NCBI RefSeq assembly: GCF_900091445.1
Contig: NZ_LT607733.1
Location: 3,364,501-3,428,500 of the forward strand
Length of the DNA: 64,000 nucleotides
Direction: 5' to 3'
Source of the DNA: Micromonospora echinofusca
GTDB taxonomy: Bacteria; Actinomycetota; Actinomycetes; Mycobacteriales; Micromonosporaceae
How positions within the stretch are numbered: position 1 is the stretch's first letter; the number at the start of each line of letters is the position of its first letter. This document shows positions 14,472 through 60,452 of the stretch, piece after piece. Both the position numbers and the translations under genes were made by a program. The notes beneath the pieces are model-generated. The model ran no database searches. It was not told where the DNA came from and saw nothing but the letters and a program-made list of their open reading frames with translations.

Positions 14472-15674
14472 CTATCCGGCGAGCGCGTCCCTGACGAACA
14501 CGATCGCCTCGGCGCCGCCCAGGTGGGCCGGGTCCAGCGGCGAATAGCCGAACCACGGGGACACGCGGGCGGGCGGCGTCACGTCGCCGAGGGCGGCGGC
14601 CAGCCACCGGGCGTCGACGACGTACCGGTCGTCCGGGAGCGCGTACAGCATCCCCTCGACGGTGTCCGGCGGTGGGACGTCCACGCCGTGGTGGCGGATC
14701 GTGCCGAGGGCCGTGGCCAGGAAGGCGTACGCCTCCCCCAGGTGGGCGTCGACGATCGCGCCGGCGCTCCACCACTCCAGCGGCAGGCCCCCCATCCGCA
14801 TGCTGCTGCGGTGCCGCTGGAGGTGGCCGTTGTGCGCGTTGACCAGCGCCGGGCCCCGCTCGGCGACGGCGAGCAGGTTGGCGGCCATCATCGAGTCCCG
14901 TACGCCGAGCAGCCGCGCCAGGCGGCTCGGCGAGGTGTCGGCCATCCAGTAGTGGTAGCGCAGCAGCCCGGCGGCGGTGCGCCCGTACAGCCGCGCCCGG
15001 TCCCAGTCGTCCCGCGAGGACGCGGCGATCAGCTGCGGCGTCTGCGCGTCGAGCAGCGCCACCAGGTCGTCGGCGAGCAGCCGCAGCTGCCTGGCCTCGG
15101 ACGTCTGCCCCACGGATTCGGCCGGGTCCATCATGGCGGCGGGACTGGTCCATCCGTCATCGGCGCCGAGCAGCCGGTCGAGCGTGTCCGCGGTGCAGGG
15201 AAGCAGGCCGGTGTCGACCCGCGCGGCGAGGTAGGCGTGCAGCGCCGAGAGGGCGCGCCGAGGGCTCGCGGCGCCGGTGATCTCCAGCGGACCGTCGAAC
15301 CCGGCGAACCGCAGCCGCTCGGCCGCGGGCCGCCCGTCGTTGTACGCGCGCATCCAGCGCACCAGCTCGCGGTTGGCCGGGAAGGCACCCCACCCGTGGC
15401 TGAAGCCGCGCGCCATGGCCTCGTCGAGGCTTCCGGCGCCCGAGGTGACGAAGTCGTCCACGACCAGGCCCGTCAGGCAGTCGCTCTCGATCGCGATCGT
15501 GCGGTAGCCCTCCTGCTCGACGAGTTGCCGGAAGAGCTCGTTGCGCAGGTCGAGCAGGACGTGCTCGCCGTGGGTGGGCTCGCCCAGGGCGAGCAGCCGT
15601 GGCCGCGTCGGCAGCAGCCTCATGACGTTGGCGGCGTCGACGACGTGGGCGGTGTCCTGGACAGCGAGGGTCAT
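14472..15674 (-). CDS. Erythromycin esterase family protein
   Basis: 400 residues. The family hallmark LLALGEPTHGEH near the N terminus carries the Glu and His of the esterase-type active site. Further conserved parts are IAIESDC, RFAGFDGP, and ALVNAHNGHLQRHRSSMR with a third conserved His. Ere-type enzymes hydrolyse macrolide lactones. Many actinobacterial members have unknown substrates, so resistance is not implied. ATG 15674 (MTLAVQDTAH) is preferred to 15779, which would read through the palindrome just upstream. Converges with mrf, with 6 bases between stops. Confidence 0.85.
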   Translation of the reverse strand: MTLAVQDTAHVVDAANVMRLLPTRPRLLALGEPTHGEHVLLDLRNELFRQLVEQEGYRTIAIESDCLTGLVVDDFVTSGAGSLDEAMARGFSHGWGAFPANRELVRWMRAYNDGRPAAERLRFAGFDGPLEITGAASPRRALSALHAYLAARVDTGLLPCTADTLDRLLGADDGWTSPAAMMDPAESVGQTSEARQLRLLADDLVALLDAQTPQLIAASSRDDWDRARLYGRTAAGLLRYHYWMADTSPSRLARLLGVRDSMMAANLLAVAERGPALVNAHNGHLQRHRSSMRMGGLPLEWWSAGAIVDAHLGEAYAFLATALGTIRHHGVDVPPPDTVEGMLYALPDDRYVVDARWLAAALGDVTPPARVSPWFGYSPLDPAHLGGAEAIVFVRDALAG

Positions 15675-15677
15675 GAC

Positions 15678-15695
15678 TTCAACCGTATCGTTGAA
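15678..15695. promoter_or_regulatory. Inverted repeat in the promoter of the esterase gene
   Basis: TTCAACCGTATCGTTGAA: six-base perfect arms with a six-base spacer, 4 bases upstream of the esterase ATG. The architecture suits a TetR- or MarR-type repressor that blocks initiation. No cognate regulator gene adjoins it. Confidence 0.5.
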
Positions 15696-15830
15696 CACCG
15701 CGGTTGAGGGTTCTGCGCGATGTTGGCGAGAGATCCATGGGGAACCCTCAAATCTGGGTGTCACCGGGGCGTTCCGCACCTCCCCCGGACGCCGTTTCGG
15801 GCCGGACCCGCGGCCGGGGACGACCGGCGA

Positions 15831-18033: not shown

Positions 18034-18098
18034 GGCGATCCGGTGAGCCGCGACCGTGCCGCCGGCTGCGCCCGCGCGTGCGGAAGGCGTAAGCGGAA

Positions 18099-18136
18099 CG
18101 CCGGCGCCCGCCCGGGGGTTCGAGCGGGCGCCGGCG
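18099..18136 (-). terminator. Terminator of the SWIM/VWA/MoxR operon
   Basis: Perfect 13-base arms (CGCCGGCGCCCGC and GCGGGCGCCGGCG) around a 12-base loop, starting 18 bases past the stop of the last operon gene. Confidence 0.75.
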
Positions 18137-18153
18137 TGGTCGGCGTCGGCGCG

Positions 18154-20055
18154 TCAGCCGACGGCGGACGCGGTCCAGGAGGACCGGATCAACTCCCGCT
18201 CGGCGGCGGCGAGGTGGACGGTCGCCGCGAGCCAGGCCCAGGCGTACCGGTCGGGATCCGGATCGGTGAGCCGACCGAACGCGTCCCGGCCGCGCCGGTC
18301 GGACTCGTCGGCGAGCGCGGCGGCCAGCGCGGCGGCGGTGGTGAAGCCGGCGCGGCGCAGCGGACCGGCCGGGCCGGCGCCGTCGCCGCGGGCCGCCTCG
18401 GCGACGGCGCGGCGGCCGCCCGCGACGGCCAGCTCCACCAGCCGGCGGACCCGCCACAGCGGGGACTCCGCGACCGCGTCGGCGCCGACGGCGAGCACCG
18501 GTCCGGTCGTCGCGGCCGGGTCGCGCGGCGGCAGGTGCCCGCCCTGGATCTCGTCGTAGCCGAGGTCCGCCCGGCCGTGCCAGTCCGGCGGCAGCCGGAG
18601 CGTCGCGGCGGCACCGGGCACCGGGCCGACCGCGAGCGGACGCAGCGTGCTGGCCCGGTCCGGGTCCAGCCGGCCGACCACCCGCACCCGCAGGCCGGGC
18701 CGGGAGGCGAGCCGCCGCAGGTTGGCAACGTGGGCCAGCCCCGGGTGTGCGTCGACGGGCACCAGCCGGATCAGCGGCCCGTCCGGCACCGGCGCGCGCT
18801 CCGCTGCGGCGTCGGTGGCGGGGGCCAGCTCGCGGGCCAGCACCTGGTCGCCGACGGCGCCCACCACCACCAGGTCGCCGCCGACGAGCGCGGTGCCCGC
18901 CCGGCCCGGGTCCTCCGGGTCCTCGGTGGCGAGCTGGGCGGTCACCACCTCGGCGAGCGGGCGGGCGAACAGTTCCGCCAGCGCTCCGGTGGCCCAGTCG
19001 GTGCCGGCGAGCGGCGTGGCCCGCACGCCCTTGCCGGCGCCGAGCCGGCCGTCCGGGGAGACGGTGGTGCCGGTGATCCGCAGGCCGCCGCGGGACAGTA
19101 CCGCGTGGTTGACCGAGACCGCGCCCATCTCGGTGACCGCCCGGGCGCAGTCCCGGGCCCGGTCCGGCCCGCCCGGTTTCACGTCGCCGAAGGAGAGCTG
19201 ACGGCCGTCGGCGGCGAGCAGGTGGGTGACCACCCCGGCGTACCCGGTCGCGCTGATCACCGGCTCCCGGCAGACACCGTGCACCTCCAGCGTGCCGTCC
19301 GGCTGGTAGGCCCGCCGCAGGACGCCGACCAGCGCCGGGTCGGGATCGCCGGCGGCCAGCCGGCCCGCGACGTACAGCAGGTCGTGCAGCACCTCGACGA
19401 GCTCGGCCAGCCGGTGGCCGTTCTGTCGTCCCCGCTGCGCGCGCAGGCCACGCACCGTGCGCAGCGCGGCGCTCTCGGCCCGCGGCAGGCCGGCGAGCCG
19501 GGCGCCGTGGGCGGCCCGCAGCAGTTCGGCCTGCGGCACCGCCCCGGCGGCCGGCACGCCGGCCGAGAGCACCGCCGCGCCCGCCCGCCACAGCGCGTCG
19601 GCGGCGGCCCGTTGCGCCTTCGTCGGTGCCGCGCCAGCCGACTTCCTGGTACGCCCGGTGCGGCCGGACGCCGCGTCGGCGCGGTCCGGCGTCGGGGACG
19701 CGGCGGCGGTGGTCGGCGGACCGGGGTGGCTGCCCGGATCGGCGACCGGGCAGGCCAGCAGGACGGCGGTGCGGTGCAGGCAGCGGGGCGAAAGCAGGCA
19801 GCTGCACCGCGCCTGGTCCGGGTCGGTGACCGCGCCTGCCGGTCCGGGCGTCAGGGTGACCAGCGCCTCCGGTCCGCAGTCGACCGACACGCCCCCGTCG
19901 AGGGGCCCGACCGGTACGCCGGCCAGCCGCTCGACGGCGGCGTCCAGCCGCTTGTGCAGCCGGGACGGCAGGGCCGCCACCGCCGCGGCGGCGACGGCCG
20001 GCAGCACCGCCGGCAACCGGTCGGTGTCCACGGTGGTGGCGGTGCGCTGCGTCAA
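18154..20055 (-). CDS. SWIM zinc-finger family protein (YehQ-like)
   Basis: 633 residues. The SWIM finger is CSCLLSPRCLH at residues 84-94 (CxCx5CxH), a zinc site thought to bind DNA or proteins. After an Ala/Pro/Thr linker the remainder is mainly alpha-helical with a beta-rich middle (VISATGYAGVVTHLLAADGRQLSFGDV). TTG 20055 is chosen as start: it overlaps the preceding stop as TTGA and sits 6 bases after GGAGG. No ATG or GTG fits as well. Last gene of the five-gene operon. SWIM proteins recur beside MoxR/VWA/DUF5682 genes, as in E. coli yehL-M-P-Q. Confidence 0.85.
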   Translation of the reverse strand: MTQRTATTVDTDRLPAVLPAVAAAAVAALPSRLHKRLDAAVERLAGVPVGPLDGGVSVDCGPEALVTLTPGPAGAVTDPDQARCSCLLSPRCLHRTAVLLACPVADPGSHPGPPTTAAASPTPDRADAASGRTGRTRKSAGAAPTKAQRAAADALWRAGAAVLSAGVPAAGAVPQAELLRAAHGARLAGLPRAESAALRTVRGLRAQRGRQNGHRLAELVEVLHDLLYVAGRLAAGDPDPALVGVLRRAYQPDGTLEVHGVCREPVISATGYAGVVTHLLAADGRQLSFGDVKPGGPDRARDCARAVTEMGAVSVNHAVLSRGGLRITGTTVSPDGRLGAGKGVRATPLAGTDWATGALAELFARPLAEVVTAQLATEDPEDPGRAGTALVGGDLVVVGAVGDQVLARELAPATDAAAERAPVPDGPLIRLVPVDAHPGLAHVANLRRLASRPGLRVRVVGRLDPDRASTLRPLAVGPVPGAAATLRLPPDWHGRADLGYDEIQGGHLPPRDPAATTGPVLAVGADAVAESPLWRVRRLVELAVAGGRRAVAEAARGDGAGPAGPLRRAGFTTAAALAAALADESDRRGRDAFGRLTDPDPDRYAWAWLAATVHLAAAERELIRSSWTASAVG

Positions 20056-23000
20056 CGTGATCCTCCGCGGATGCGGTCGCCCACCCAGCGGGCGAGTTCG
20101 AGCGGACTGAGGGCGGCGACCGGCATTCCGGCCGCGACGAGCTGCTGGGCGACCGGCACCGAGTAGCAGGGCGCTCCCCTGTCGTTCAGCGCGGCACAGC
20201 CGAGCACGTGCACGCCGGAACTGACCAGCGTGCGGACCTCGCCGAGCAGCCCGGCCAGCGGGTAGCCCTCCTCGAAGTCGCTGACCACGGCGACGATGGT
20301 GCGGCTCGGCACGGTCACCAGCGAGCGGGCGGCGGCCAGCCCGGCGGCGATGTGCGTACCACCGCCGACGCGCACCTCCAGCAGCAGCGACAGTGGGTCG
20401 TCGACCCGGTCGGTCAGGTCGACCACCTCGGTGGAGAAGGCGAGGAAGTGGGTGGACAGGGCGGGCACCCCGGCCAGCACGGCGGCGGTCAACGCCGACC
20501 ACACCACCGACGCCTCCATCGAGCCGGACACGTCGACCACCAGCACCAGCCGCCAGTCGGCCTCCTTGCGCGTGCGGCTGTTGAAGACGGGGCGCTGCGG
20601 CACCACCACCGTCCGGCCGTCGCCGAGGCGCTGGGTGTGCGCCAGGTTCGCCCGCAGCGTACGGGCGAGGTTGATCCGGCCGCCGGGGCGGCGGGACGGA
20701 CGCGGGTTGGTCAGCCCCGTCAGCGCCGGGCGGACCTGGGTGGCCAACTGCTTCGTCAGCTCCTCGACCAGCCGCCGCACCAGTGGACGCAGCTTGGCCA
20801 GCTGCCCCTCGGGCAGCCCGCCGGCCAGCGACAGCACCGAGGTCAGCAGCTCCATCGACGGGCGTACCGCGGCGGGGTCGAGCTCGGTGAGCACGTCGGT
20901 ACGGCCGTCCTCGGCCGCCCGGGCGATGACCTCCTCGCGGACCGCGGTGCCGAACAGCGCCTCGAGTTCGTCGGCCCACTCGCGGGCGGTCGGGAAGGAC
21001 GCCTCCTGGCCGCCGCCGGCCGCCTGCCCGAGGTCGGTGGCGCCCTCGCCCTGGCCCGCCCCGTACAGCTCGTCCAGGGCGCGGGCGTAGCGACGGGCGT
21101 CGGCCGGCAACCGGTCGGGTTGGCGGCCGAGCAGCAGCCGCCACCGGTCGGTGGGGGTGAGCCCGGCCTCGGGGGTGTCCGGCCCGGGTGCGGCCTCGAC
21201 CTCGGCGTCGGCGCAGCCACTCGGCGCGCCCGGGACGGGGATGTGGCGGGCGAGCAGGGCGGCCCGGCCGGCCGCGTCGGCGGCGGCCCAGCGGGCCAGC
21301 AGCTCGGGCGGGGCGGACAGGCTCAGATCGAGCCGGTCGCCGAGCCGGTCGGTGACGGTGTGCAGCAGCCGGTCCCGGGCCGCCGGGGTCAGCACGTCGA
21401 ATCCGCCGCGCAGCGCCGGCAGCCGGTCCAGGAAGTCGGCGTCGGGAAGCCGCTCGACGCGTTCCAGCAGCGGGTCCAGCGCGGCCGGGGCGGACTGCAG
21501 CAGCGGGTGCGCCGCGGTGAGCAGACCGCCGAGCAGCCGGTGCAGGTGCCGGCGGGTGTCCGGTCCGGTCGCCGCGTCGACCCAGCCGGCCACCCGGGTC
21601 CCCAGGGTCTCCAGGTCGGTCAGGTCGAGCAGCACCCGGGCGGCCAGGGCGGCGCCCTGGATCAACGGCGAGCCGGCGCGGGCCAGGTGGTCGAGGGCCT
21701 CGTCCAGGCGCAGCCCGATCCGGTCCTCGCCGGCGCGGACCGCGAGGTCGACCAGCGCGGCGGCGTCGGCCGGGACGTCGCTGCCGGCCAGGCCGGGCAA
21801 CCCGCGTACCGCCGCGTCCAGCAGCACGACCGTCAGCTCGGCCGCCCGGGCCCGGCCGTCGGCGGTGGTGCCGGGCAGGTGTTCGCGGCGCAGCGCCTCC
21901 AGCAGGTCCAGCGCGGCCAGCAGCTCGGGCAGCGTGCCGGTGCCCGGCAGCACGGAGGCCGCCAGGTCCAGCCGGTCGGTGACCAGGTCCGGCAGGTCGC
22001 ACCGGGCGGCGTCGCGCAGGCCGACGAGCAGCTGCGCGGCCGTGGGGCCACCGTCGGCGGCCTCCCGGCGGAACCGTTCCCGCAGGGTGCCGGCCGCGGC
22101 CAGCGCCGCGGTCACCCCGCGTACGCCCACCAGGTCCAGCCGGGCCGCCACGGACGGCGTCCAGGCCAGTTGCCAGCGGGTGGTCAGGGCCGCACCGTCG
22201 CCGGTGCCGGACACCGCGATCGCCTCGCCGTAGCCGATGCCGCAGACCTGGAGGCGTTGCAGCAGGATCTCCCGCCGCCCGTCCAGCTCGGTACGCAGCG
22301 GGTCCAGCCGCACCTCGCGGGCCTTGGGGCTGTCCGGGCTGGGCAGCCGCAGTGTGACGAGTTCCGCCTCGACCGCCGGGCCGAGCCCGGAGCGCGGCGT
22401 ACCGGGGGCGACGCGGCCCCGCTCGGCGCCGACCAGCACGGTCTCCAGCGCCCGGGCCAGCGCCCGGCCCCGGCCGAGCAGTTCGCCCTGGCCGAGCACG
22501 GTGGTCACCGCCTCCAGCACCTCGCCCCGGCCCGGGGCGGGCAGGTCCCGCAGCCGGGCCAGGTCGTCGGCGAGCCGTACCGTCTCGGTGGCCTCACCGG
22601 TGCCGGCGGTGTGGCCGGCCGCGCGGAGTTCCCGGCACAGGTCGGTGACCGCGCGGGCGGCGGCGGCCCGGATCCGTTCCGGGTCGCCGGCGGCGGTGAA
22701 GACGGACTGCTGCCAGCGCGGGTCGCGGATCCCGGCCGGGTAGCCGGACCGGGAGTCGAGCAGGTCGAAGGCGTACGGCACCAGCGAGGTGACCGCCGTC
22801 GCGCCGTCGGTGGCGGCGGGTCCGGGCGGCGTCGTCACGGACCGGACCGGATCGGTCGCGGCGGGGCCGGGCCGGCCGGGCGCCACGCTGGCGTCGGCGG
22901 CCGGCGCGGCGGCGAGCAGGGCCGGCGCGTGGAAGGCGCCGACGACGGCGGCGACCCGCCGGCCGTCGGCGCCGGCCTCGGCCAGCACCCGGCGCATGTG

Positions 23001-23729
23001 CCGCTCGCGGGCCAGGTCCCGGGCCGGTACGCCGCCGTGGCCGGCGCTGTCGGTGCGCATCGCCCAGCCGACGCCGAGCGCAGCCCGGCGCAGCGCTTCG
23101 GGCGCGCTGCCCGGGGCGCGCACCTCGACCACCCGGTCCCACAGGTCGTCGCCGTCGCGGCCGGTGCCGCTGGCGCTGAGCGCGGCGGCGTAGGAGCGAC
23201 GCAGGCCGGGCACCGGCTCACCGGCGTCCGGCTCGGGCCCGCCACCGGCGGCCGGGTCGGAGTCGGTAGCCGGGCCGGTGCCGGTGGCCGGCTCGGTGCC
23301 GTCGGCGGTCCAGCCGCTGTCGGCCAGCGGCAGGTCGCAGCAGAGCACCTCGACGCCGCGTTGCCGGGCCCAGCGCAGCGCGGCCAGTTCCGGGGAGAAG
23401 TCGGCGAACGGGTAGAAGCCCATCGGGCCGTCCGTGCCGTGGCTGCCGACGAGGGCCAGCGGGGCCCGCGCGGCCGGGTCGGACAGGTACGGCAGCCAGC
23501 GCTGGAAGTCGGCGGGCAGCTCGACGCAGACCACCTCGGCCCCGGCGGCGTCCAGCAGCGCCGGGACCGCCGCCGCCAGCGCCGGGCTGTGGTGCCGCAC
23601 CCCGATCAGGTACGGCCGGAGCGAACCGGCGAGCGCGTCGACCACGGCGCGCGGGTCGGCCGACGTCGGGTCGACGGCCACCGGTCCGGCGGTCGGCGGC
23701 GCGCCGGACGTACGGGAAAGGGTCGTCAC
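20052..23729 (-). CDS. DUF5682 - von Willebrand A fusion protein
   Basis: 1,225 residues. The N-terminal part is DUF5682 (YehM-like): LIGVRHHSPALAAAVP, VVCVELPADFQRWLPYL, GFYPFADFSPELAALRWA and RGVEVLCCDLPLAD. A long helical region follows. The last ~190 residues are a VWA domain with the MIDAS metal site DVSGSM (about 1065-1070), GGGTHIAAG and SDFEEG, as in YehP. In enterobacteria these are two proteins, and here they are one chain. GTG 23729 overlaps the MoxR stop (GTGA). VWA proteins next to MoxR ATPases usually act as substrate adaptors. Cytoplasmic, no signal. Confidence 0.9.
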   Translation of the reverse strand: MTTLSRTSGAPPTAGPVAVDPTSADPRAVVDALAGSLRPYLIGVRHHSPALAAAVPALLDAAGAEVVCVELPADFQRWLPYLSDPAARAPLALVGSHGTDGPMGFYPFADFSPELAALRWARQRGVEVLCCDLPLADSGWTADGTEPATGTGPATDSDPAAGGGPEPDAGEPVPGLRRSYAAALSASGTGRDGDDLWDRVVEVRAPGSAPEALRRAALGVGWAMRTDSAGHGGVPARDLARERHMRRVLAEAGADGRRVAAVVGAFHAPALLAAAPAADASVAPGRPGPAATDPVRSVTTPPGPAATDGATAVTSLVPYAFDLLDSRSGYPAGIRDPRWQQSVFTAAGDPERIRAAAARAVTDLCRELRAAGHTAGTGEATETVRLADDLARLRDLPAPGRGEVLEAVTTVLGQGELLGRGRALARALETVLVGAERGRVAPGTPRSGLGPAVEAELVTLRLPSPDSPKAREVRLDPLRTELDGRREILLQRLQVCGIGYGEAIAVSGTGDGAALTTRWQLAWTPSVAARLDLVGVRGVTAALAAAGTLRERFRREAADGGPTAAQLLVGLRDAARCDLPDLVTDRLDLAASVLPGTGTLPELLAALDLLEALRREHLPGTTADGRARAAELTVVLLDAAVRGLPGLAGSDVPADAAALVDLAVRAGEDRIGLRLDEALDHLARAGSPLIQGAALAARVLLDLTDLETLGTRVAGWVDAATGPDTRRHLHRLLGGLLTAAHPLLQSAPAALDPLLERVERLPDADFLDRLPALRGGFDVLTPAARDRLLHTVTDRLGDRLDLSLSAPPELLARWAAADAAGRAALLARHIPVPGAPSGCADAEVEAAPGPDTPEAGLTPTDRWRLLLGRQPDRLPADARRYARALDELYGAGQGEGATDLGQAAGGGQEASFPTAREWADELEALFGTAVREEVIARAAEDGRTDVLTELDPAAVRPSMELLTSVLSLAGGLPEGQLAKLRPLVRRLVEELTKQLATQVRPALTGLTNPRPSRRPGGRINLARTLRANLAHTQRLGDGRTVVVPQRPVFNSRTRKEADWRLVLVVDVSGSMEASVVWSALTAAVLAGVPALSTHFLAFSTEVVDLTDRVDDPLSLLLEVRVGGGTHIAAGLAAARSLVTVPSRTIVAVVSDFEEGYPLAGLLGEVRTLVSSGVHVLGCAALNDRGAPCYSVPVAQQLVAAGMPVAALSPLELARWVGDRIRGGSR

Positions 23730-24916
23730 CGCAGGCTCTCCCGCAGGTCCCAGAGCCGGCGCCACATCGCCGAGCCGTCCTCGGCGCGGCGGCGGACCGG
23801 GCCGTCCCAGTAGCCGAGCAGCCGGGCGTGGTCGTTCTGGTCGTCCTTGCGCACCACGCCGAGCAGGTGCCCGGGCACCAGGTCGAGCGTGTCCCCGCCG
23901 GGCAGGTACGCGGCCGACAGGCCGAGCGACACCGCCACCTGCACCGCCTCGGCGGTGGACATGACCGTGCCGGGCCGCTCCACGTCCCAGCCCTCGCCCG
24001 AACGACCGGAACGCAGGTCGCGGAACACGGTGACCAGGGCGTCCAGCACCGCGTCGTCCACCGTGTAGGCCGCACCGGCGCGCCGCACGGCGGCGGTGGC
24101 CTGCTGGCGGACCAGGTCGGTCTCGACGTCGGCGTCGGCGATCGGGTGGATCGTCTCGAAGTTGAACCGGCGCTTGAGCGCCGAGGACATCTCCGACACG
24201 CCCCGGTCCCGCAGGTTGGCGGTGGCGATCACGGTGAACCCGGGCAGGGCGCGGATCAGGCCGTCCTCGGTGCCGGACAGCTCCGGCACGTTCATCCGCC
24301 GGTCGGACAGGATGGACACCAGCGCGTCCTGCACCTCGGGCAGGCAGCGGGTGACCTCCTCGATCCGCACCACCCGGCCGCTACGCATCGCGGTCAGCAC
24401 CGGCGAGTCGACCAGCGCCTGCGGAGTCGGGCCCTGCGCCAGCAGCAGGGCGTAGTTCCAGCCGTAGCGGAAGGCGTCCTCGGTGGTGCCGGCGGTGCCC
24501 TGCACGGTCAGCGCGCTGGTGCCGCAGACCGCGGCGGCCAACAGCTCCGACAGCATGGACTTCGCGGTGCCGGGCTCGCCGACCAGCAGCAGGCCCCGCT
24601 CGCCGGCCAGGGTGACCACGCACCGCTCGACCAGGCTCCGCTCGCCGACGAACTTCGCCGCAATGGTCATGCTGGCCGGCAGCTCGGTGCCGTCGGGGCC
24701 GGTACGCCGCTCGGCGGGCAGCTTCAACGCCTCGCCGTCACTGCCCTGGATGAAGGTGACCACGGCGCGCGGGGTCAGCGCCCAGCCCGGCGGCCGGGCC
24801 CCGTCGTCGTACGCGGCCAGGAAGGCCAGCTCGTCGGCGTACCGCTGCTCGGCGGAGAGGACCTGGGCGGCGGTCTCCGGCGCCTCGGAGGGGCGGACAT
24901 GTTCCGTCACGGTCAC
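23726..24916 (-). CDS. MoxR-type AAA+ ATPase (YehL-like)
   Basis: 396 residues. Walker A GEPGTAKS at 113-120, Walker B-like VVRIEEVTR at about 182-190, sensor 1 FTVIATANLRDRG, and an arginine-finger region SSALKRRFNFETIHP. This is the MoxR plan of a chaperone-like ATPase that remodels or inserts cofactors into protein targets, usually with a VWA partner, here encoded next. GTG 24916 has GAGGAA 5 bases upstream. A second GTG lies at 24910. Stop overlaps the next gene (GTGA). Confidence 0.92.
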   Translation of the reverse strand: MTVTEHVRPSEAPETAAQVLSAEQRYADELAFLAAYDDGARPPGWALTPRAVVTFIQGSDGEALKLPAERRTGPDGTELPASMTIAAKFVGERSLVERCVVTLAGERGLLLVGEPGTAKSMLSELLAAAVCGTSALTVQGTAGTTEDAFRYGWNYALLLAQGPTPQALVDSPVLTAMRSGRVVRIEEVTRCLPEVQDALVSILSDRRMNVPELSGTEDGLIRALPGFTVIATANLRDRGVSEMSSALKRRFNFETIHPIADADVETDLVRQQATAAVRRAGAAYTVDDAVLDALVTVFRDLRSGRSGEGWDVERPGTVMSTAEAVQVAVSLGLSAAYLPGGDTLDLVPGHLLGVVRKDDQNDHARLLGYWDGPVRRRAEDGSAMWRRLWDLRESLR

Positions 24917-25023
24917 GGGTGTTCCTCGATCTTCCTCTTGAGGGGGTGTTGCGGGACAGGGGTCGGCGGCGCCGCAACGTCCGGGCAGGTCGTCGCGGGC
25001 ACCGCCGCCCTTTCGGGTACGGG

Positions 25024-28000
25024 TCAGCGGGGGGCGCCGCGGCCGGGCAGGTCGGCGAGGCGGGGCCGGTCGCCGTCGCGGAGGCGTCGCCAGGCCCGCC
25101 GGTAGAGTTCCGCGGCCGGTTCGAACGGCACGGTCACCCCGAGCGCGGCCGTGCCGTCGGGGGCGAGGTCGAACAGGGCCAACTTCCAGCCCTCGATCGG
25201 CACCTGCCCGGCGCCGCGCTCCAGCCACGGGCCGGGCAGGAACAGCGACCGGCCGGCCCGGGACCGGCTGGCCTCGACGACCAGGTCGGTGCCGGCCAGT
25301 TCGGCGCGGGCCGCCTTCAGCCGGGCCGGCTTCCAGCCCGTCCACCTCGCCGTGTTGCGGTCGGTCGGGTCGGGCATGGCCAGCAGCATCAGGTACGCCG
25401 CCGCCGCGTCGGCGCCCAGGGCGTGCTCCCCGGCGACCTCGGCGACCAGGTCGGGCACCGACCGCGTCGGGTCCTGCGGCCACCAGGTCCCGTCCGCCGT
25501 CCGCTCGCCACCGTCGGGCTCCCCCGCGTCGGCGAGCAGCGCCGCGAAGCGCGGGTCGCGCACCAGCCGCAGCGCCACCTCCACCGGGTACGGCTTGGCC
25601 ACGTCCCTGCGCAGCGCCGGCAGGTACGGGTCCGTGCCGTCGGCGTCGAGCAGCTCCGGCCGCAGCGCGGGCGACGGTCGGCTGTCGTGGGTGGACAGCA
25701 CGATGGCGCCGTAGCGTTCCCAGCCCGGGCCCGTCTCCGACGGGGTGCCCGCCACCTGCCGGAACTCGGGCAGGTAGACGTACTGCTCCAGGTCGAGCAG
25801 GAGGTCGGGGTTGGCCAGCCGGTCCCGGATCGCGGCGAGCGCGGCCGGCAGCGCGGCCCGGCACGGGTCACCGGCCGGCGTGTGGTGGGCTACCCAGGCC
25901 GCCAGTGCGACCGTGGAGCGCAGCACGTGGCCGGTGAAGCCCGCCGTGCGGTTGTCGACCGGCCGCACCCGGTCGCCTCTGAACTCGAAGGCCAGGTCGG
26001 TGCTCAACTCGGCCGAGCGGGCCGGGTCGAGCAGCGCCGGCAACGCCTTCGCGGGCGCCCACCCGGTGCGGATGGCGCGGGTCGCCTCGGCGAGCAGCTG
26101 TTCGGGCACGACCACCCGGCGCCCCAGGGCGGCGTTCCACACCGCCGCGGCTGCGGCCACGTCCGGTCCGTCGGTCCACAGCCGGGCCGGGTCGGCCGGC
26201 AGCAGCGCCGAGACCACGGCCCGGCGCAGTGCCGGCCTGGCCTCCCGCAGCACCCCGAAGGCCAGCTTGACCTCCCCGACCTGCCTGATCCCGAGCGCCT
26301 TGCGCAGCTCGGTCGGGACGGTGCCGGCCGAGTCCGCGTACGGCAGGCCGGCCAGCACGAGCTTCGCGGCGGTGGGGGTGATGCCGGTCAGCTCGGCGAA
26401 CCGCTCGGCCGCCTCGGGCCGCCACGGCAGCGGGCCGCGTGCGGCCCACTCGGTGCGGAAGCCGGCCAGCCAGCCGGTCGGCCGTTCGTCACCGACCGGC
26501 TCCGAGGAGTGCACCGTGTACGGCTCCGGCACGGCGAAGACGCCGGCCGGGTCGTGGTGCAGCGCGTCGAAGAAGTAGCCGGTGGCCGTGCCGCTGGAGT
26601 TGAGCACGGCGAGGAACGCCCCGTCGGGCAGCGGCAGGATGCCCGGCCGGGGGTAGCGGCGCGAGCCGTCGGGGTTCTTCAGGTCGTCGTCCAGCAGGTG
26701 CAGCCTGCACCGGCGCCACCGCCCCGGCTCGGCCGCCGCGCTCAGGTCGAGCCCGTCCAGCTCCGTGAGCAGGGCGGCCAGCGTCTCCCGGTGCTCGTCG
26801 GGGGTGACCGCCGCGACGGCCCGGTAGGCGACGGCGGCGACGCCGTCGAGCAGCGACCACCAGTTCAGGGTGGACGGCAGCGACGGCCCGTCCAGGTGCA
26901 GCCGTACGGCGGGCTCGACCCCGCCGGTGGCGGAGCACTGGATGGCGAACGCCCGGAACTGGGTGAAGGTCGAGGTCGCGGTGCCCGCCCCGTGGACCGA
27001 GCCGCGCAGCCCGTCCAGCGCCGCGCTGAGCTGCCTGTCGGTGGGTCCGGCCGCGGCGGCCGGCGGCGCCACGGCGACGGGCGCGGCCAACGCCCTGGTG
27101 AGCCGCTCGGTCACCGCGTCCAGGTCGGTACGCACCCGGGCGGCCAGCCGCAGCGCCCCGGCCACCCCGGCGAGCAGGGCGTCGTGGCCGATCGCCGGCA
27201 GCGTCGAGCGGACCAGCTCGACCAGCGCGTCGGTGTCGTCCCCGTCGATGGCCGGTGCAGCCCCGCCGGTGCCGACCATGGACGCCGGGACGGCGACGGG
27301 CAGACCGGTGATCGCCTGCGTGGCGGCGGTCGACCCGGATCGCGTCGCCGCGCGGGCCGCGGCCCGCGCGGCCTCTTCCGCCAGGGCGGCGCGCCGCTCG
27401 TCGACCGCGACCTTGAGCAGTGCGGCGGCGGTCTCCCGGTCCATCCGGCGCAGGGTGGTGGAGCCAGCCGGGTCCCGGGGCAGCAGGTGCCCGACGAACG
27501 CCTGCGGCGGCAGCGGCACGGCGTCGGGGTGGTAGTCGCGGCTGGCCGGCGGTCCGGGGACCGCCGACGCCACCCCGTCCGGGTCGAGCAGGACGAACCC
27601 CTTGAGTACGGCCCGCGGCCGGTCGTCGCCGGGCAGCACCAGCGCCGCGATCGGCTCCTGCCCCGCAGCCACGGTGACCGTACGGCCGGCGAGGTCGTCG
27701 CCGCGTACCGAGCCGTCCGGCAGGGTGACCACCCGCCAGCCGAGCAGACCGTCCACGGGGACCGCTGCCGGGGTTGCCCCCTCGGACAGGGCCGGGCGCA
27801 GCCAGCTGGCCGGCTCCCGCAGCTGGCTGCCGTCGACCGGGAGCTCCGCCAGGAACCGGGGCAGGCCGCGCCCGCCGTGGGTGTTGGCGACCGGGTCGTA
27901 CTCGCGCCAGCCGTACGTGTCGTCGTCCTCGCTGTGCCGGTAGACCCAGTGGTCGGTGCCGTCGGTGATGACCGGCAGCTCGGACGGCACGGCGGTGTCA

Positions 28001-30057
28001 CCGGCGTGCAGGACGCCGTCGCCGGTGGTCCGTCCGCCGCCCGCCAGCGGCAGGGTGATCCCCTTCCCGCGTGGCTGGCTGCCGTGGTGGCGGCCCTGGA
28101 GGGGCTGCGGTTCACCGGGCGCCGAGTGCCAGTAGCCGCGCAGGTCGTAGTCGAGCGCCTTGGAACGCCAGTAGACCAGCAGGTGGCCGGCGACGTAGTG
28201 GTAGCCGGGCTGGCCCCACATGTCGTTGGCCGGGATGCGCAGGTCGTGGCGGAGCACGATGCCCTCGTCGCCAATCACGCGCACCGTGGTCGGCCCGGCC
28301 AGGATCACGTACGGCCAGGCCTCCTGCCGGGCGACCTCGACCCGGCGGTCGCCGCCGGTCACCTCCTGCCAGGCCAGCTCCCAGTCCGGCCAGCCCAGCT
28401 CGTCGACGAGGCCGCCGCGCAGGGCGCGGGCGACGTGCTCGGCGAGATCGACGCCCAGGGCCTGCCCGAGGTCGCCGCCCGCGCCGGCCTCGCCGACGAC
28501 GTCGGGGACGAGCCGCAGCGCCTCGACCGGGATCCTGCCCAGCCAGTCCACCGACGCCGGCAGGTACGGCAGCCCGGCGGTGAACCGGGCGCGGATCCGC
28601 TCCCGCAGCCAGTCGGTCAGCAGCGGCCGGACGCCCGGCGTGTCGACCATCCGGCGCAGCGCCGGTTGCTGGTCGTCGAGCTGGTCGAGGCCCCGGCGCA
28701 GGGCGGCGGTGAACCGGTCGTCGCCGGCCACGGCGAGCAGATCCCGCTCTCCCCCACGCTTGACCCAGTTCGCCAGGTCGAGGACGTCGCGCTCCTTGGG
28801 CGGGGTCACCGGCAGGCCGAGGGCGAGCAGCAGGTCGAGCAGTTCCAGGTCGCCGTCGACGTCGAGGCCCTCGCCGCTGCCGGCCAGTTCGATGCGCAGC
28901 CGGTCGGCCATCCGCTCGACGAGCGGGTACAGCTGCGGCAGCCGGCGGTGGTGATGCCCGGAGTTGGCCCGACTCACGAAGCGGCGTAGCCAGCCGACGG
29001 AGCCGTCGCGCGGGCGGGCCGCCTCCGGCACGTCCGGGTCGCACAGGCCGGTGAGCGCGCCGGTGTCGGTGAGCAGGGCCAGCCAGGTGACCAGGTCGTC
29101 GCGGTCGGCGGGCATCAGGTCGAGCAGGCTGCCGCGGACCGCCGGGTCGCGCCCGGCCAGCGCCGTCACGGCCGGCAGGTGCGCCTTCCACCAGCCGGCC
29201 GGTGCCTCGGCGGCCACCGGCAGCCGGAGCAGCTCGGTCAGGTAGGCGTCCGCCCGGTCGGCGACGGCGGCAGCGGCCTTGCCGGCGGCTCTGGTGGCCG
29301 TGCGGACCAGGCGGTTCACCGCGGTGGCCGACTGGGTGGACGGGACCACCCCGGCGGCCGCGGCCCGCAGCGCCAGCCGGCAGAAGCGGTCCAGCGCCTC
29401 GTCGGCCGGCAACTGGGCGGACAACTCCTTCGCGTAGCCGGCCAGCGCGGTCGCGGACACCACCTTGGCCGACGCGAACTCCACGTAGACCTCGTCCAGC
29501 CGGTGCAGGTCGACCGGCAGGCCGTGCTGCGCCTCCGCCTTGCGCGCCTTGTTGAACAACTGCGTGGCGTACGCGTCCTGCCCGGCGGCCAGGAACACCC
29601 GCGCCGCCTGCTCGAAGAACGTCGGCAGGAAGTGCGGCAGCGTACGGGCGAACCGGTCGGCGATGCCCTGGTGGGCGTCCAGGGCGGCCTTGGGACGCGA
29701 GCGCACCTGCTTGGCCAGCTTCTGCAACTCCGGCACCACCGCCAACGCGTGCCGGCCGTCCGCCGGGTGGTGCACCAGCACCCATTCCGGGAAGGCCAAC
29801 GGGCGGCGGGGGCCCAGCCCGACGACGACCGGCTCGGCGCCCGGCGCCAGGCCGAGGAACTCGAGGGCGATGTCCTCGCCCTCGCCGAGCGCGGCGTCGA
29901 CCAGGCGCACCACCGGCCGGTCGTCGAGGGCCGGGTGCCGGTAGGTGCGGGCGGTCAGGGGCACCGCCCGCTCCCCCGCCCCGGCGGTGTCGGTCGGCAG
30001 CACCGCGCCGGCGGTCAGCACGCTTTCTGCCGAATGCTCGTCCGCGGTCGTGGTCAT
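25024..30057 (-). CDS. Very large protein of unknown function in the MoxR/VWA operon
   Basis: 1,677 residues, no recognised enzymatic motif, no signal or transmembrane segment. Residues 1-560 are mostly alpha-helical, perhaps a solenoid (for example PHFLPTFFEQAARVFLAAGQ, DAYATQLFNKARKAEAQ). Residues about 590-850 are beta-rich with Trp/Tyr-rich signatures (HYVAGHLLVYWRSKALDYD; DGTDHWVYRHSEDDDTYG). An Ala-rich helical stretch lies near 885-1010, and a mixed C-terminal half follows. Start ATG 30057, or GTG 30066 which overlaps the upstream stop as GTGA. Likely a scaffold or target-recognition subunit. This is inferred from context only. Confidence 0.8.
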   Translation of the reverse strand: MTTTADEHSAESVLTAGAVLPTDTAGAGERAVPLTARTYRHPALDDRPVVRLVDAALGEGEDIALEFLGLAPGAEPVVVGLGPRRPLAFPEWVLVHHPADGRHALAVVPELQKLAKQVRSRPKAALDAHQGIADRFARTLPHFLPTFFEQAARVFLAAGQDAYATQLFNKARKAEAQHGLPVDLHRLDEVYVEFASAKVVSATALAGYAKELSAQLPADEALDRFCRLALRAAAAGVVPSTQSATAVNRLVRTATRAAGKAAAAVADRADAYLTELLRLPVAAEAPAGWWKAHLPAVTALAGRDPAVRGSLLDLMPADRDDLVTWLALLTDTGALTGLCDPDVPEAARPRDGSVGWLRRFVSRANSGHHHRRLPQLYPLVERMADRLRIELAGSGEGLDVDGDLELLDLLLALGLPVTPPKERDVLDLANWVKRGGERDLLAVAGDDRFTAALRRGLDQLDDQQPALRRMVDTPGVRPLLTDWLRERIRARFTAGLPYLPASVDWLGRIPVEALRLVPDVVGEAGAGGDLGQALGVDLAEHVARALRGGLVDELGWPDWELAWQEVTGGDRRVEVARQEAWPYVILAGPTTVRVIGDEGIVLRHDLRIPANDMWGQPGYHYVAGHLLVYWRSKALDYDLRGYWHSAPGEPQPLQGRHHGSQPRGKGITLPLAGGGRTTGDGVLHAGDTAVPSELPVITDGTDHWVYRHSEDDDTYGWREYDPVANTHGGRGLPRFLAELPVDGSQLREPASWLRPALSEGATPAAVPVDGLLGWRVVTLPDGSVRGDDLAGRTVTVAAGQEPIAALVLPGDDRPRAVLKGFVLLDPDGVASAVPGPPASRDYHPDAVPLPPQAFVGHLLPRDPAGSTTLRRMDRETAAALLKVAVDERRAALAEEAARAAARAATRSGSTAATQAITGLPVAVPASMVGTGGAAPAIDGDDTDALVELVRSTLPAIGHDALLAGVAGALRLAARVRTDLDAVTERLTRALAAPVAVAPPAAAAGPTDRQLSAALDGLRGSVHGAGTATSTFTQFRAFAIQCSATGGVEPAVRLHLDGPSLPSTLNWWSLLDGVAAVAYRAVAAVTPDEHRETLAALLTELDGLDLSAAAEPGRWRRCRLHLLDDDLKNPDGSRRYPRPGILPLPDGAFLAVLNSSGTATGYFFDALHHDPAGVFAVPEPYTVHSSEPVGDERPTGWLAGFRTEWAARGPLPWRPEAAERFAELTGITPTAAKLVLAGLPYADSAGTVPTELRKALGIRQVGEVKLAFGVLREARPALRRAVVSALLPADPARLWTDGPDVAAAAAVWNAALGRRVVVPEQLLAEATRAIRTGWAPAKALPALLDPARSAELSTDLAFEFRGDRVRPVDNRTAGFTGHVLRSTVALAAWVAHHTPAGDPCRAALPAALAAIRDRLANPDLLLDLEQYVYLPEFRQVAGTPSETGPGWERYGAIVLSTHDSRPSPALRPELLDADGTDPYLPALRRDVAKPYPVEVALRLVRDPRFAALLADAGEPDGGERTADGTWWPQDPTRSVPDLVAEVAGEHALGADAAAAYLMLLAMPDPTDRNTARWTGWKPARLKAARAELAGTDLVVEASRSRAGRSLFLPGPWLERGAGQVPIEGWKLALFDLAPDGTAALGVTVPFEPAAELYRRAWRRLRDGDRPRLADLPGRGAPR

Positions 30058-30062
30058 CGCGC

Positions 30063-30920
30063 TCACGCCTTCTTCCCCGTTCCGGTCACGGCGCCGGACA
30101 GGGCCGTCGCCATCCGCATTCCTTCCGACCAGGCCACCGGCCCGACCTCGGTCAACCGCAGCGTCGGGCCGTCCACGACCGCCCAGGAGAGGGTGCCCAG
30201 GGTCGCCTCGGAGTCCCAGTAGTCCTCGTCGAACCACAGGGCGGCCTCGACGGTGCGGCCGGCCTCCCAGACGCGGCACCTGATCTGCGAGCCGGAGACC
30301 CGGAAGCCGAGCGTGGCGGCCCGGACGGCCAGCCGGTTGGGGACCTTGGTGCCGCGGAAGTCGGCGACCGTGGTGTCCCGCGCCCTGAGGTCGTCGGGCT
30401 TGTCCCAGGTGCCCCGGTGCAACTGCTCGATGCGCTGGGTCACGTCCAGTTCGTCGGCGAACTCGCGCAGGTCGGGCAGGTCGGGCAGGCGCACCGGGTG
30501 AGGCAGCGTGGCGGTCGCCGGCGAGAGCCGGACGGTGTCGCCGTCGAGGTTGACCACGCGCAGGTCGCCGCCGTCGGTGACGTCGCGCAGGAAGCCCGTC
30601 TCGGCCAGGTCGTCCCCGAGCACCACGAGGTCGCGCAGCGCGTGCTGCCAGGCCGGGTCCGGCCAGACGCGGGCCAGCAGCGCGGTCGGCACCGGCAGCG
30701 AGGACACCACCCAGGCGTCGACCCGGGCCAGGCACTCGGCGCCGTGCCGGTCCAGCCACTGGGCGAGCTGACGCAGCCGGTCCACCTCGGGGGCGTCACG
30801 CAGCACCTTCGGCAGAGTCTTCAGTGGACGGCCGCCGGCGCGCGGGCCGGTGGACCGGGCCGCCACCTTTCCGTCCACGAGAGAGATCTCGTACGAGTCC
30901 CCCACCGGTAGCCAGGCCAT
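30063..30920 (-). CDS. DUF4132-like protein (MolR/YehI-related), first gene of the operon
   Basis: 285 residues. It begins MAWLPVGDSYEISLVDGKVA and holds the segment RPLKTLPKVLRDAPEVDRLRQ plus WLDRHGAECLARVDAWVVSSLPVPTALLARVWPDPAWQHALRD, typical of the DUF4132 domain found in YehI/MolR and in short actinobacterial proteins. The family function is unknown. ATG 30920 has GGAGGG 8 bases upstream. It ends at 30063, coupled to the 1,677-residue protein. Confidence 0.75.
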   Translation of the reverse strand: MAWLPVGDSYEISLVDGKVAARSTGPRAGGRPLKTLPKVLRDAPEVDRLRQLAQWLDRHGAECLARVDAWVVSSLPVPTALLARVWPDPAWQHALRDLVVLGDDLAETGFLRDVTDGGDLRVVNLDGDTVRLSPATATLPHPVRLPDLPDLREFADELDVTQRIEQLHRGTWDKPDDLRARDTTVADFRGTKVPNRLAVRAATLGFRVSGSQIRCRVWEAGRTVEAALWFDEDYWDSEATLGTLSWAVVDGPTLRLTEVGPVAWSEGMRMATALSGAVTGTGKKA

Positions 30921-59414: not shown

Positions 59415-60452
59415 TCAGAAGTCGTCGTCGAAGGCCACCGTGCCGCTCACCCCGACCTGGTACGCCGACACGCGCCGCTCGAAGAAGTTCGACAGCTCCT
59501 GGACGTCCTGCAACTCCATGAACGCGAACGGGTTGGTCGACCCGTAGTGGGCGGGGATGCCCAGCTGCGCGAGCCGCCGGTCGGCGACGTGTTGCAGGTA
59601 CTCGCGCATGTCGGCCAGGGACAGCCCGGGTACGCCCTGGCCGAGCAGGTCCTCGGCGAACTGGACCTCGCACTCGACGGCCTCGGTGAGCATCTGCCGC
59701 ACCTGCTCGGCCAGCTCGTCGTCGAACAGGTCCGGCTCCTCGCCACGGACCGTCTCCACCACGTCGAAGGCGAAGGCCATGTGCAGGGACTCGTCGCGGA
59801 ACACCCAGTTGGTGCCGGACGCCAGGCCGTGCAGCAGCCCCCGGGAGCGCAGGAAGTAGACGTAGGCGAAGGCGCCGTAGAAGAACAGCCCCTCGATGCA
59901 GGCGGCGAAGCAGATCAGGTTGAGCAGGAACGCCCGCCGGTCCTGTCGGGTACGCAGCTCACGCAGTTCGCCCAGCGAGTCGATCCAGCGGAAGCAGAAC
60001 TCGGCCTTGCGCCGGATCGACGGGATGTTCTCGATGGCGGCGAACGCGGCGAAGCGTTCGGTCTCGTCGGGCACGTAGGTGTCGAGCAGGTTGAGGTAGA
60101 ACTGGACGTGCACGGCCTCCTCGAACAGTTGCCGCGACAGGTAGAGCCGGCCCTCCGGGGAGTTGACGTGCTGGTAGAGGTTGAGCACGAGGTTGTTGGC
60201 GACGATCGTGTCGCCGGTGGCGAAGAACGCGACGAGGCGGCTGACCAGGTGCCGCTCGGCCGGCGAGAGCCGGTCGAGGTCGGCGAGGTCGGCGTGCAGG
60301 TCGACCTCCTCCACGGTCCAGGTGTTGCGGATGGCGTCACGGAAGCGGTCGAAGAAGTGCGGGTAACGCATCGGGCGCAGGGTGAGATCCATCCCCGGGT
60401 CTAGCAGCATGTGGGCGGTCCTCGGTTCGCTGGTGGTGGTCGGGGTGGTCAC
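59415..60452 (-). CDS. nrdB: Ribonucleotide reductase class I, beta subunit
   Basis: 345 residues. Holds the diiron site and the tyrosyl radical. Ligand motifs: EEAVHVQFY (ExxHxxxY; the Tyr is the radical residue, so not the Tyr-less class Ic type), FRDESLHMAF, AAIENIP and CEVQFAEDLLG. It ends with the acidic FDDDF tail that docks on the alpha subunit. The GTG at 60452 overlaps the nrdA stop. Makes deoxynucleotides together with NrdA. Confidence 0.93.
   Translation of the reverse strand: MTTPTTTSEPRTAHMLLDPGMDLTLRPMRYPHFFDRFRDAIRNTWTVEEVDLHADLADLDRLSPAERHLVSRLVAFFATGDTIVANNLVLNLYQHVNSPEGRLYLSRQLFEEAVHVQFYLNLLDTYVPDETERFAAFAAIENIPSIRRKAEFCFRWIDSLGELRELRTRQDRRAFLLNLICFAACIEGLFFYGAFAYVYFLRSRGLLHGLASGTNWVFRDESLHMAFAFDVVETVRGEEPDLFDDELAEQVRQMLTEAVECEVQFAEDLLGQGVPGLSLADMREYLQHVADRRLAQLGIPAHYGSTNPFAFMELQDVQELSNFFERRVSAYQVGVSGTVAFDDDF

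Follow-up and report, generated by a model that had tools for sequence, protein, structure and literature searches.

An operon of five genes at positions 18154-30920 of the window, i.e. of the whole stretch of 64,000 nucleotides of the soil actinobacterium Micromonospora echinofusca analysed here (contig NZ_LT607733.1, positions 3,364,501 to 3,428,500), is, judged by the protein families it encodes, the Micromonospora counterpart of the yehI-L-M-P-Q genes of Escherichia coli. It appears to be a new form of the YehL-type system, one in which a core protein is fused, the scaffold has been exchanged and DUF5682 is predicted to contain a Tiki-type domain. Its most economical reading would be an ATP-driven MoxR-VWA remodelling machine. 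The genes and the domains discussed below are the following.

30063..30920, minus strand: gene 1, small DUF4132 protein, 285 amino acids (aa), ATG start (PF13569, E 7.1e-24, residues 30-203)
25024..30066, minus strand: gene 2, large protein, 1,680 aa from a GTG (beyond residue 521 a propeller, then mixed helices and strands in the model)
27445..28425, minus strand: predicted beta-propeller of the large protein, about residues 548-874 (AlphaFold model)
23726..24916, minus strand: gene 3, MoxR AAA+ ATPase of the YehL type, 396 aa, GTG start (AAA_5, E 3.9e-37)
20052..23729, minus strand: gene 4, DUF5682-VWA fusion, 1,225 aa, GTG start (PF18934, E 5.6e-207, and PF05762 VWA_CoxE, E 4e-64, in one chain)
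22896..23639, minus strand: predicted Tiki/TraB-type domain of DUF5682, about residues 31-278, with H46, E70, R241 and H267 (AlphaFold, fold matches, Pfam cross-hits, invariant residues)
20082..20747, minus strand: VWA domain of the CoxE type with a DxSxS metal-site motif (PF05762, residues 994-1215)
18154..20055, minus strand: gene 5, SWIM-type protein, 633 aa, TTG start (PF04434, 16.1 bits, cut-off 19.6; CxC...CxH in frame)
18098..18137 (about), minus strand: GC-rich hairpin right after the last stop codon, 17-bp stem

The E. coli K-12 genes belong to the same families, i.e. yehI to DUF4132, yehL to MoxR, yehM to DUF5682, yehP to VWA_CoxE and yehQ to SWIM, and the gene order yehI-yehK-yehL-yehM-yehP-yehQ is that of the Micromonospora operon, which therefore belongs to a known kind of locus. 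The Micromonospora MoxR is 46% identical to YehL over 373 columns (E about 2e-96), the VWA part is 38% identical to YehP and the DUF5682 part about 26% identical to YehM. In both genomes Pfam finds DUF5682 and VWA_CoxE encoded beside a YehL-type MoxR. The Pfam score of gene 5 is below the cut-off, yet the protein falls into the same profile family as the YehQ-type proteins. The kinship with the yeh genes that had been proposed in the initial annotation thus holds domain by domain, by Pfam as well as by direct comparison. The differences lie in DUF5682 and VWA, which are fused in Micromonospora and encoded by separate genes (yehM and yehP) in E. coli, and in YehI, a DUF4132 protein of 1,210 aa, which is replaced by the 285-aa DUF4132 protein and an apparently unrelated 1,680-aa propeller protein. 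A large YehI-like DUF4132 protein is absent; the DUF4132 domain alone is present, in the 285-aa protein. As there is only this mini-DUF4132, and as the 1,680-aa protein has no YehI profile similarity, we regard the operon as a variant rather than a plain member of the YehL-type system. The YehL subfamily probably goes back to Snider and Houry in 2006; it is one of seven MoxR subfamilies (PMC3893208). In the open-licence literature searched, we found no function for the yeh genes or YehL and no mention of DUF5682 by name.

The operon, which lies in a host genome of 7.0 Mb in one contig, is confirmed as a five-gene unit. The five leftward genes of the initial annotation are all borne out: each lies on the minus strand and has the clean codon usage of a high-GC gene. 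The gene string is more than chance because the same string recurs across phyla. Overlaps had been claimed at three or four of the four junctions. There are three, of 4 bases each: GTGA at 30063-30066 between genes 1 and 2 (conditional on the GTG start of gene 2), GTGA at 23726-23729 between genes 3 and 4, and TTGA at 20052-20055 between genes 4 and 5. A gap of 107 bases separates the large gene from moxR, so the fourth junction does not overlap. Alternative starts were considered as well. A second gene caller begins gene 1 9 bases earlier, which gives 288 aa, and it favoured a later GTG for gene 4 (1,209 aa), with which the overlap with moxR would vanish; in gene 2, the ATG at 30057 gives 1,677 aa, which is the database form. 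The hairpin that had been noted at the end of the operon was also recovered: the 84-nucleotide stretch around its 17-bp stem has a folding energy of -52.4 kcal/mol (z -3.1; 0/200 shuffles as good), has no T run and is absent from the output of the terminator scan.

MoxR, DUF5682, VWA and SWIM genes recur together over many phyla. The MoxR alignment gave 80 named loci, the best 80 of 184, which biases the sample to close relatives; the 57 loci with long flanks were counted and 23 with short flanks, including L116 and L118, were dropped. DUF5682 is found in 56 of the 57, VWA in 54, DUF4132 in 49 and SWIM in 52 (54 after the SWIM-like genes in L113 and L120 are included), and the detected DUF5682, VWA and SWIM genes agree in strand with MoxR in 57/57 loci. 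The loci span Actinomycetota, Pseudomonadota, Bacillota, Bacteroidota, Planctomycetota, Spirochaetota, Myxococcota, Chloroflexota and others. The initial annotation held the genes to be one system, a view that would fail if they lay apart in most genomes; the four are together in nearly all loci sampled. DUF4132, which it counted among the members, is more loosely linked: in Actinomycetota genomes 10/15 of its matches are beside DUF5682 and 5 are not.

DUF5682 was found at 28 places in 18 of the 197 Actinomycetota genomes searched (29 rows, with one gene appearing twice), and the sequence around each of the 28, the window and L013 among them, was covered. By large partner, these are 15 loci with DUF5691, 7 with the 1,680-aa protein and mini-DUF4132, 2 with a YehI-type DUF4132 protein and 4 with a pair of proteins termed s1 and s2. 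The linkage is tight: 15/15 DUF5691 matches over the cut-off lie no further than about 3.4 kb from DUF5682 (3 weak matches do not), and the 1,680-aa protein adjoins DUF5682 in 7/7 genomes that have it, with one extra partial match elsewhere in G172. The SWIM protein is present in 15/15 DUF5691-type, 7/7 window-type and 2/2 YehI-type loci, whereas s1 has no Pfam match, hence SWIM is not established in the fourth type.

It is conspicuous that the core stays while the large partner is exchanged, i.e. it is a DUF4132-HEAT protein, a DUF5691-HEAT protein, the 1,680-aa propeller protein with mini-DUF4132, or the fourth set. This exchangeability was missed in the initial annotation. HEAT repeats were found in 17/42 DUF4132 partner proteins and WGR in 6/42 (perhaps an undercount, some N-termini being trimmed), and DUF5691 has a marginal HEAT match; the exchanged partners thus appear, by their sequence matches and the model, to be repeat or propeller scaffolds. 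A MoxR tree of 107 rows, built by a quick method with long branches flagged and covering the YehL-type relatives, follows the partner types in part. The HEAT/DUF5691 type (17 rows, Paenibacillus beside Actinomycetota) is on one side of a branch with support 100, as is the window type (26 rows, support 100), and the fourth type (6 rows) is on one side of a branch with support 97; the DUF4132 type (43 rows) does not form one group and requires 11 changes. Some rows of the tree were labelled manually, L101 as fourth type (s1 match) and L113 and L120 as HEAT type (the HEAT match of L120 is below the cut-off). The DUF5691-type set of other Actinomycetota resembles the window in that SWIM, MoxR, DUF5682 and VWA form one cluster, with the SWIM protein present also in both Paenibacillus loci. 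It differs in its large partner (DUF5691, or a HEAT protein in Paenibacillus), in a shorter SWIM protein and, in L020, in SWIM and DUF5691 genes divergent from MoxR.

A single genome may carry two or three partner types, M. echinofusca included. Its genome has a second, divergent MoxR-DUF5682-VWA set at C1:2447967-2455210 (L013), with two unassigned proteins of 154 aa (its Cys/His pattern is SWIM-like by eye) and 468 aa. Its 951-aa DUF5682-like protein matches DUF5682 in the genome search (E 1.7e-31) and the window protein by BLAST (E 6e-8), whereas the Pfam hmmscan listed nothing for it. Sets of the same kind are found in G023, G153 and G192 and, with s2, in a Myxococcales metagenome-assembled genome (MAG; L119). 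The possibility that s2 is the remainder of a SWIM protein was rejected (hhalign probability 2.8%). FxSxx-COOH genes (FxsB radical SAM, FxsC TIR-like, a TPR protein and an HExxH protein) lie just before the second set, at L013:2967-11204; there are no matches to them in the other fourth-type loci fetched, so we regard their position as coincidence and not as part of the set. Elsewhere, two to four DUF4132 genes stand ahead of MoxR in L111, L117, L071, L065 and L067. In L116 (1781-6925) and L118 (1-2942) a YehL-like MoxR adjoins type II/IV secretion ATPase genes, in L116 together with an ATP-grasp gene, and there is no DUF5682.

The 1,680-aa protein gave no matches in Pfam, NCBIfam or PADLOC, in line with the earlier remark that the large subunit has no assigned family. 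It nevertheless has at least 871 homologues at E 0.001 or better among 7,977 candidates scored, and is 97% identical to a Micromonospora echinofusca protein. The structure prediction proposed in the initial annotation was run on residues 521-1680 (predicted local distance difference test, pLDDT, 87.0; predicted template-modelling score, pTM, 0.67) and gave the predicted beta-propeller. Mini-DUF4132 matches the C-terminal domain of E. coli YehI (profile probability 95%, E 3.8e-8), whereas the 1,680-aa protein was rejected as a YehI homologue (hhalign probability 0.7%). We note that in Arachnia propionica (L057:2-10014) three relatives of the 1,680-aa protein are encoded in tandem, with no DUF4132 match ahead of MoxR in the available stretch.

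DUF5682 is predicted to begin with a Tiki/TraB/EreA-type domain, followed by a HEAT-like arm; the account in the initial annotation, which had recognised the fusion with VWA, was incomplete in this respect. The AlphaFold model of DUF5682 has a pLDDT of 86.2 and a pTM of 0.80, and TraB is its best viral-structure match. Weak Tiki-type Pfam cross-hits occur in many DUF5682 members, ChaN being the commonest foreign match of the N-terminal domain (15/54). Residues H46, E70, R241 and H267 are invariant in 76/76 aligned DUF5682 sequences from many phyla. With the Tiki superfamily (TraB/PrgY, ChaN, EreA) DUF5682 shares the predicted fold, the first His motif, the Glu, R..M and GxxH; it differs in its very low sequence similarity, the HEAT-like arm, the tie to MoxR-VWA and the absence of the first Glu of the 2His/2Glu set. 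Just 1/198 Actinomycetota genomes gave a match to TraB itself. As a separate observation, the window contains an erythromycin esterase family gene, i.e. a Tiki-type enzyme, at 14472-15698 (PF05139, E 5e-54), downstream of the operon and separated from it by two called genes. In the VWA part, DxSxS is present in 95/95 VWA domains of the locus survey. DUF5682 and VWA share a single frame in 25 loci of the survey, of which 23 belong to the window type.

The computational results are the operon and its conservation, the exchangeability of the large partner, and the fold predicted for DUF5682 together with its invariant residues; the assembly of a ring, the transmission of force, a hydrolase activity and the parts played by SWIM protein and scaffold are inferred, as follows. 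The MoxR ring would spend ATP to move its VWA partner; NorQ has been modelled to twist and stretch a linker of NorD (PMC13036017). As VWA is covalently joined to DUF5682 in M. echinofusca, the same force would reach the Tiki-type protein directly, and the ring would act on the Tiki-type domain itself, which it may open, close or load. The domain would then cut or otherwise act on a target that the SWIM protein brings in together with the large scaffold, which in this operon consists of the 1,680-aa propeller protein with mini-DUF4132. A phage VWA protein joined to a metallopeptidase offers a precedent (PMC7824862). To the general proposal, in which a MoxR ring acts via VWA on a Tiki-type domain that is a hydrolase or binds metal, and scaffolds select the target, we would give slightly less than an even chance. 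The bolder form, an undescribed and widespread class of AAA+ hydrolase machine in which the ring gates or loads a Tiki-type protease or esterase via VWA and exchangeable scaffolds choose the substrate, is, in our judgement, rather unlikely.

Several observations weigh against these proposals. The Tiki assignment rests on the model and weak cross-hits: the window DUF5682 scores 14.4 bits against TraB_PrgY_gumN (PF01963), below the curated cut-off of 26.8, and the profile-profile tests were not significant (YbaP E 0.22, with a narrow alignment; EreA E 0.033 with a probability of 1.5%) and so give no sequence-profile proof of the Tiki link. A PDB sequence search found no relative of DUF5682, and Foldseek, run against the PDB and the viral library, gave no match of the model with E <= 0.001. 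Its top PDB rows are mostly helical-repeat proteins, hence the Tiki part is visible only via VIA-align and the viral library, among the families that these list. In an enzyme with the 2His/2Glu set the first Glu is two residues ahead of the first His (PMC6254334), whereas position 44 of DUF5682 is V, I or L in 76/76 sequences; without a Glu there, the activity may differ or be lost. Moreover, most lineages encode DUF5682 and VWA as two proteins, and MoxR occurs without DUF5682 in L116 and L118 (in the stretch available) and in L111, which was counted.

The main rival of the hydrolase reading is metal or cofactor insertion, in which MoxR and the CoxE-type VWA would insert a metal, haem or cobalamin and a ChaN-like DUF5682 domain would bind the cofactor without cutting. 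We consider it improbable, although the VWA belongs to the CoxE family and ChaN, the commonest foreign match of the N-terminal domain, is a haem-binding Tiki family. NorQ/NorD (PMC13036017) and, likewise with metals, CoxD/CoxE are precedents and resemble the operon in pairing a MoxR ATPase with a VWA partner, whereas DUF5682, SWIM and the scaffold do not figure in the available part of the published NorQ/NorD description. A gene for a B12-binding domain adjoins the DUF5691 gene in 7/7 genomes of genus g5, which carry the DUF5691-type set. This synteny is limited to one genus, however, and the B12 gene of L020 is opposite in direction to DUF5691; among the 8 other DUF5691-type genomes, G110 is the only one in which a B12-binding match lies no more than about 4 kb from DUF5682, and these domains are widespread in any case (18/18 genomes and 12/14 controls). 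Being confined to one genus and involving common domains, the synteny leaves the odds of insertion unchanged. The B12-binding gene is at L020:3440-3829 and at matching places in six more g5 genomes, with succinyl-CoA ligase-like genes on the other side (by eye); the neighbour clusters, too, were inspected by eye only, so a metalloenzyme partner may be present among them. A further pointer to insertion comes from molR, which we take to belong to the yeh region. Use of molybdate reportedly requires it (Lee 1990, as cited by PMC8533742 and PMC4245954). MoaA was found in 26/29 genomes searched; two of the others, Acetatifactor muris (L078) and a Stenotrophomonas (L093), have the core string but no MoaA match, which in drafts is no proof of absence, and the third MoaA-less genome, L111, is also without DUF5682. 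A general molybdenum role is thus weakened by the two core-string genomes.

A general or stress chaperone without enzyme activity, i.e. a degenerate Tiki domain and repeat scaffolds that would protect or assemble large complexes, perhaps at DNA, seems distinctly improbable to us. The HEAT and WGR domains of the DUF4132 partners fit it, and the upregulation of a DUF4132 gene on DdrO depletion in Deinococcus (PMC8533742) is only an indirect lead to the stress role that had been suggested earlier. Conservation of the four residues in all aligned sequences, however, is not expected of a merely structural domain. In addition, a search for LexA-like and RecA-NDp-like damage boxes gave no LexA-like box in the window, and neither of the two damage-motif sites found is upstream of the operon. 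Very unlikely, in our view, is a role in anti-phage defence or conflict like that proposed for MoxR-vWA systems of multicellular prokaryotes. MoxR-VWA pairs do anchor several proposed conflict systems (PMC7159879), the distribution of DUF5682 in Actinomycetota is patchy and 12/57 loci have two to four DUF4132 copies; still, 0/5 operon proteins match PADLOC at E 0.01, no variable effector domain was seen in the loci, and the main text of PMC7159879 is without DUF5682, DUF4132 and SWIM. The survey for linked phage-defence genes that the initial annotation had proposed revealed no link, with no PADLOC family in more than two of 123 neighbours (123 of 142 picked; best 25 of 107 families by members), and its conflict role was therefore not borne out. 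Single defence matches among the neighbours do occur, e.g. a UvrD-type helicase. In a Lachnospiraceae MAG (L088:11160-14735), a UvrD-type helicase gene stands between MoxR and DUF5682. The MoxR-vWA-beta-propeller ternary systems (bpMoxR) also have a MoxR, a VWA and a beta-propeller protein, but the Micromonospora MoxR reaches 22.9 bits on PF20030, below the cut-off of 27, and the predicted propeller is in the separate 1,680-aa protein, the VWA being fused to DUF5682 instead. In the jumbo-phage MoxR-vWA pair, the peptidase-fused vWA has, as here, an N-terminal enzyme-like domain in one chain; it differs in its phage virion context, and the available text does not state that the peptidase is of the Tiki kind (PMC7824862).

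Further away in the window, a ribonucleotide reductase small chain gene (PF00268) is at 59415-60410, with an 808-aa gene just upstream.

If the proposed action of the MoxR ring on a Tiki-type hydrolase is true, it would represent a processing machine that is driven by ATP and has no kinship with Clp, Lon, FtsH or the proteasome. The YehL machinery is present in E. coli K-12 itself. A system of many phyla would gain a concrete, testable activity from a predicted Tiki-type domain that sits at its centre and whose His, Glu and Arg residues are invariant, and the exchangeable scaffolds may offer a route to looking for its targets. The enzyme-like domain and VWA, being one chain in M. echinofusca, would make this species' protein a convenient form for structure work.

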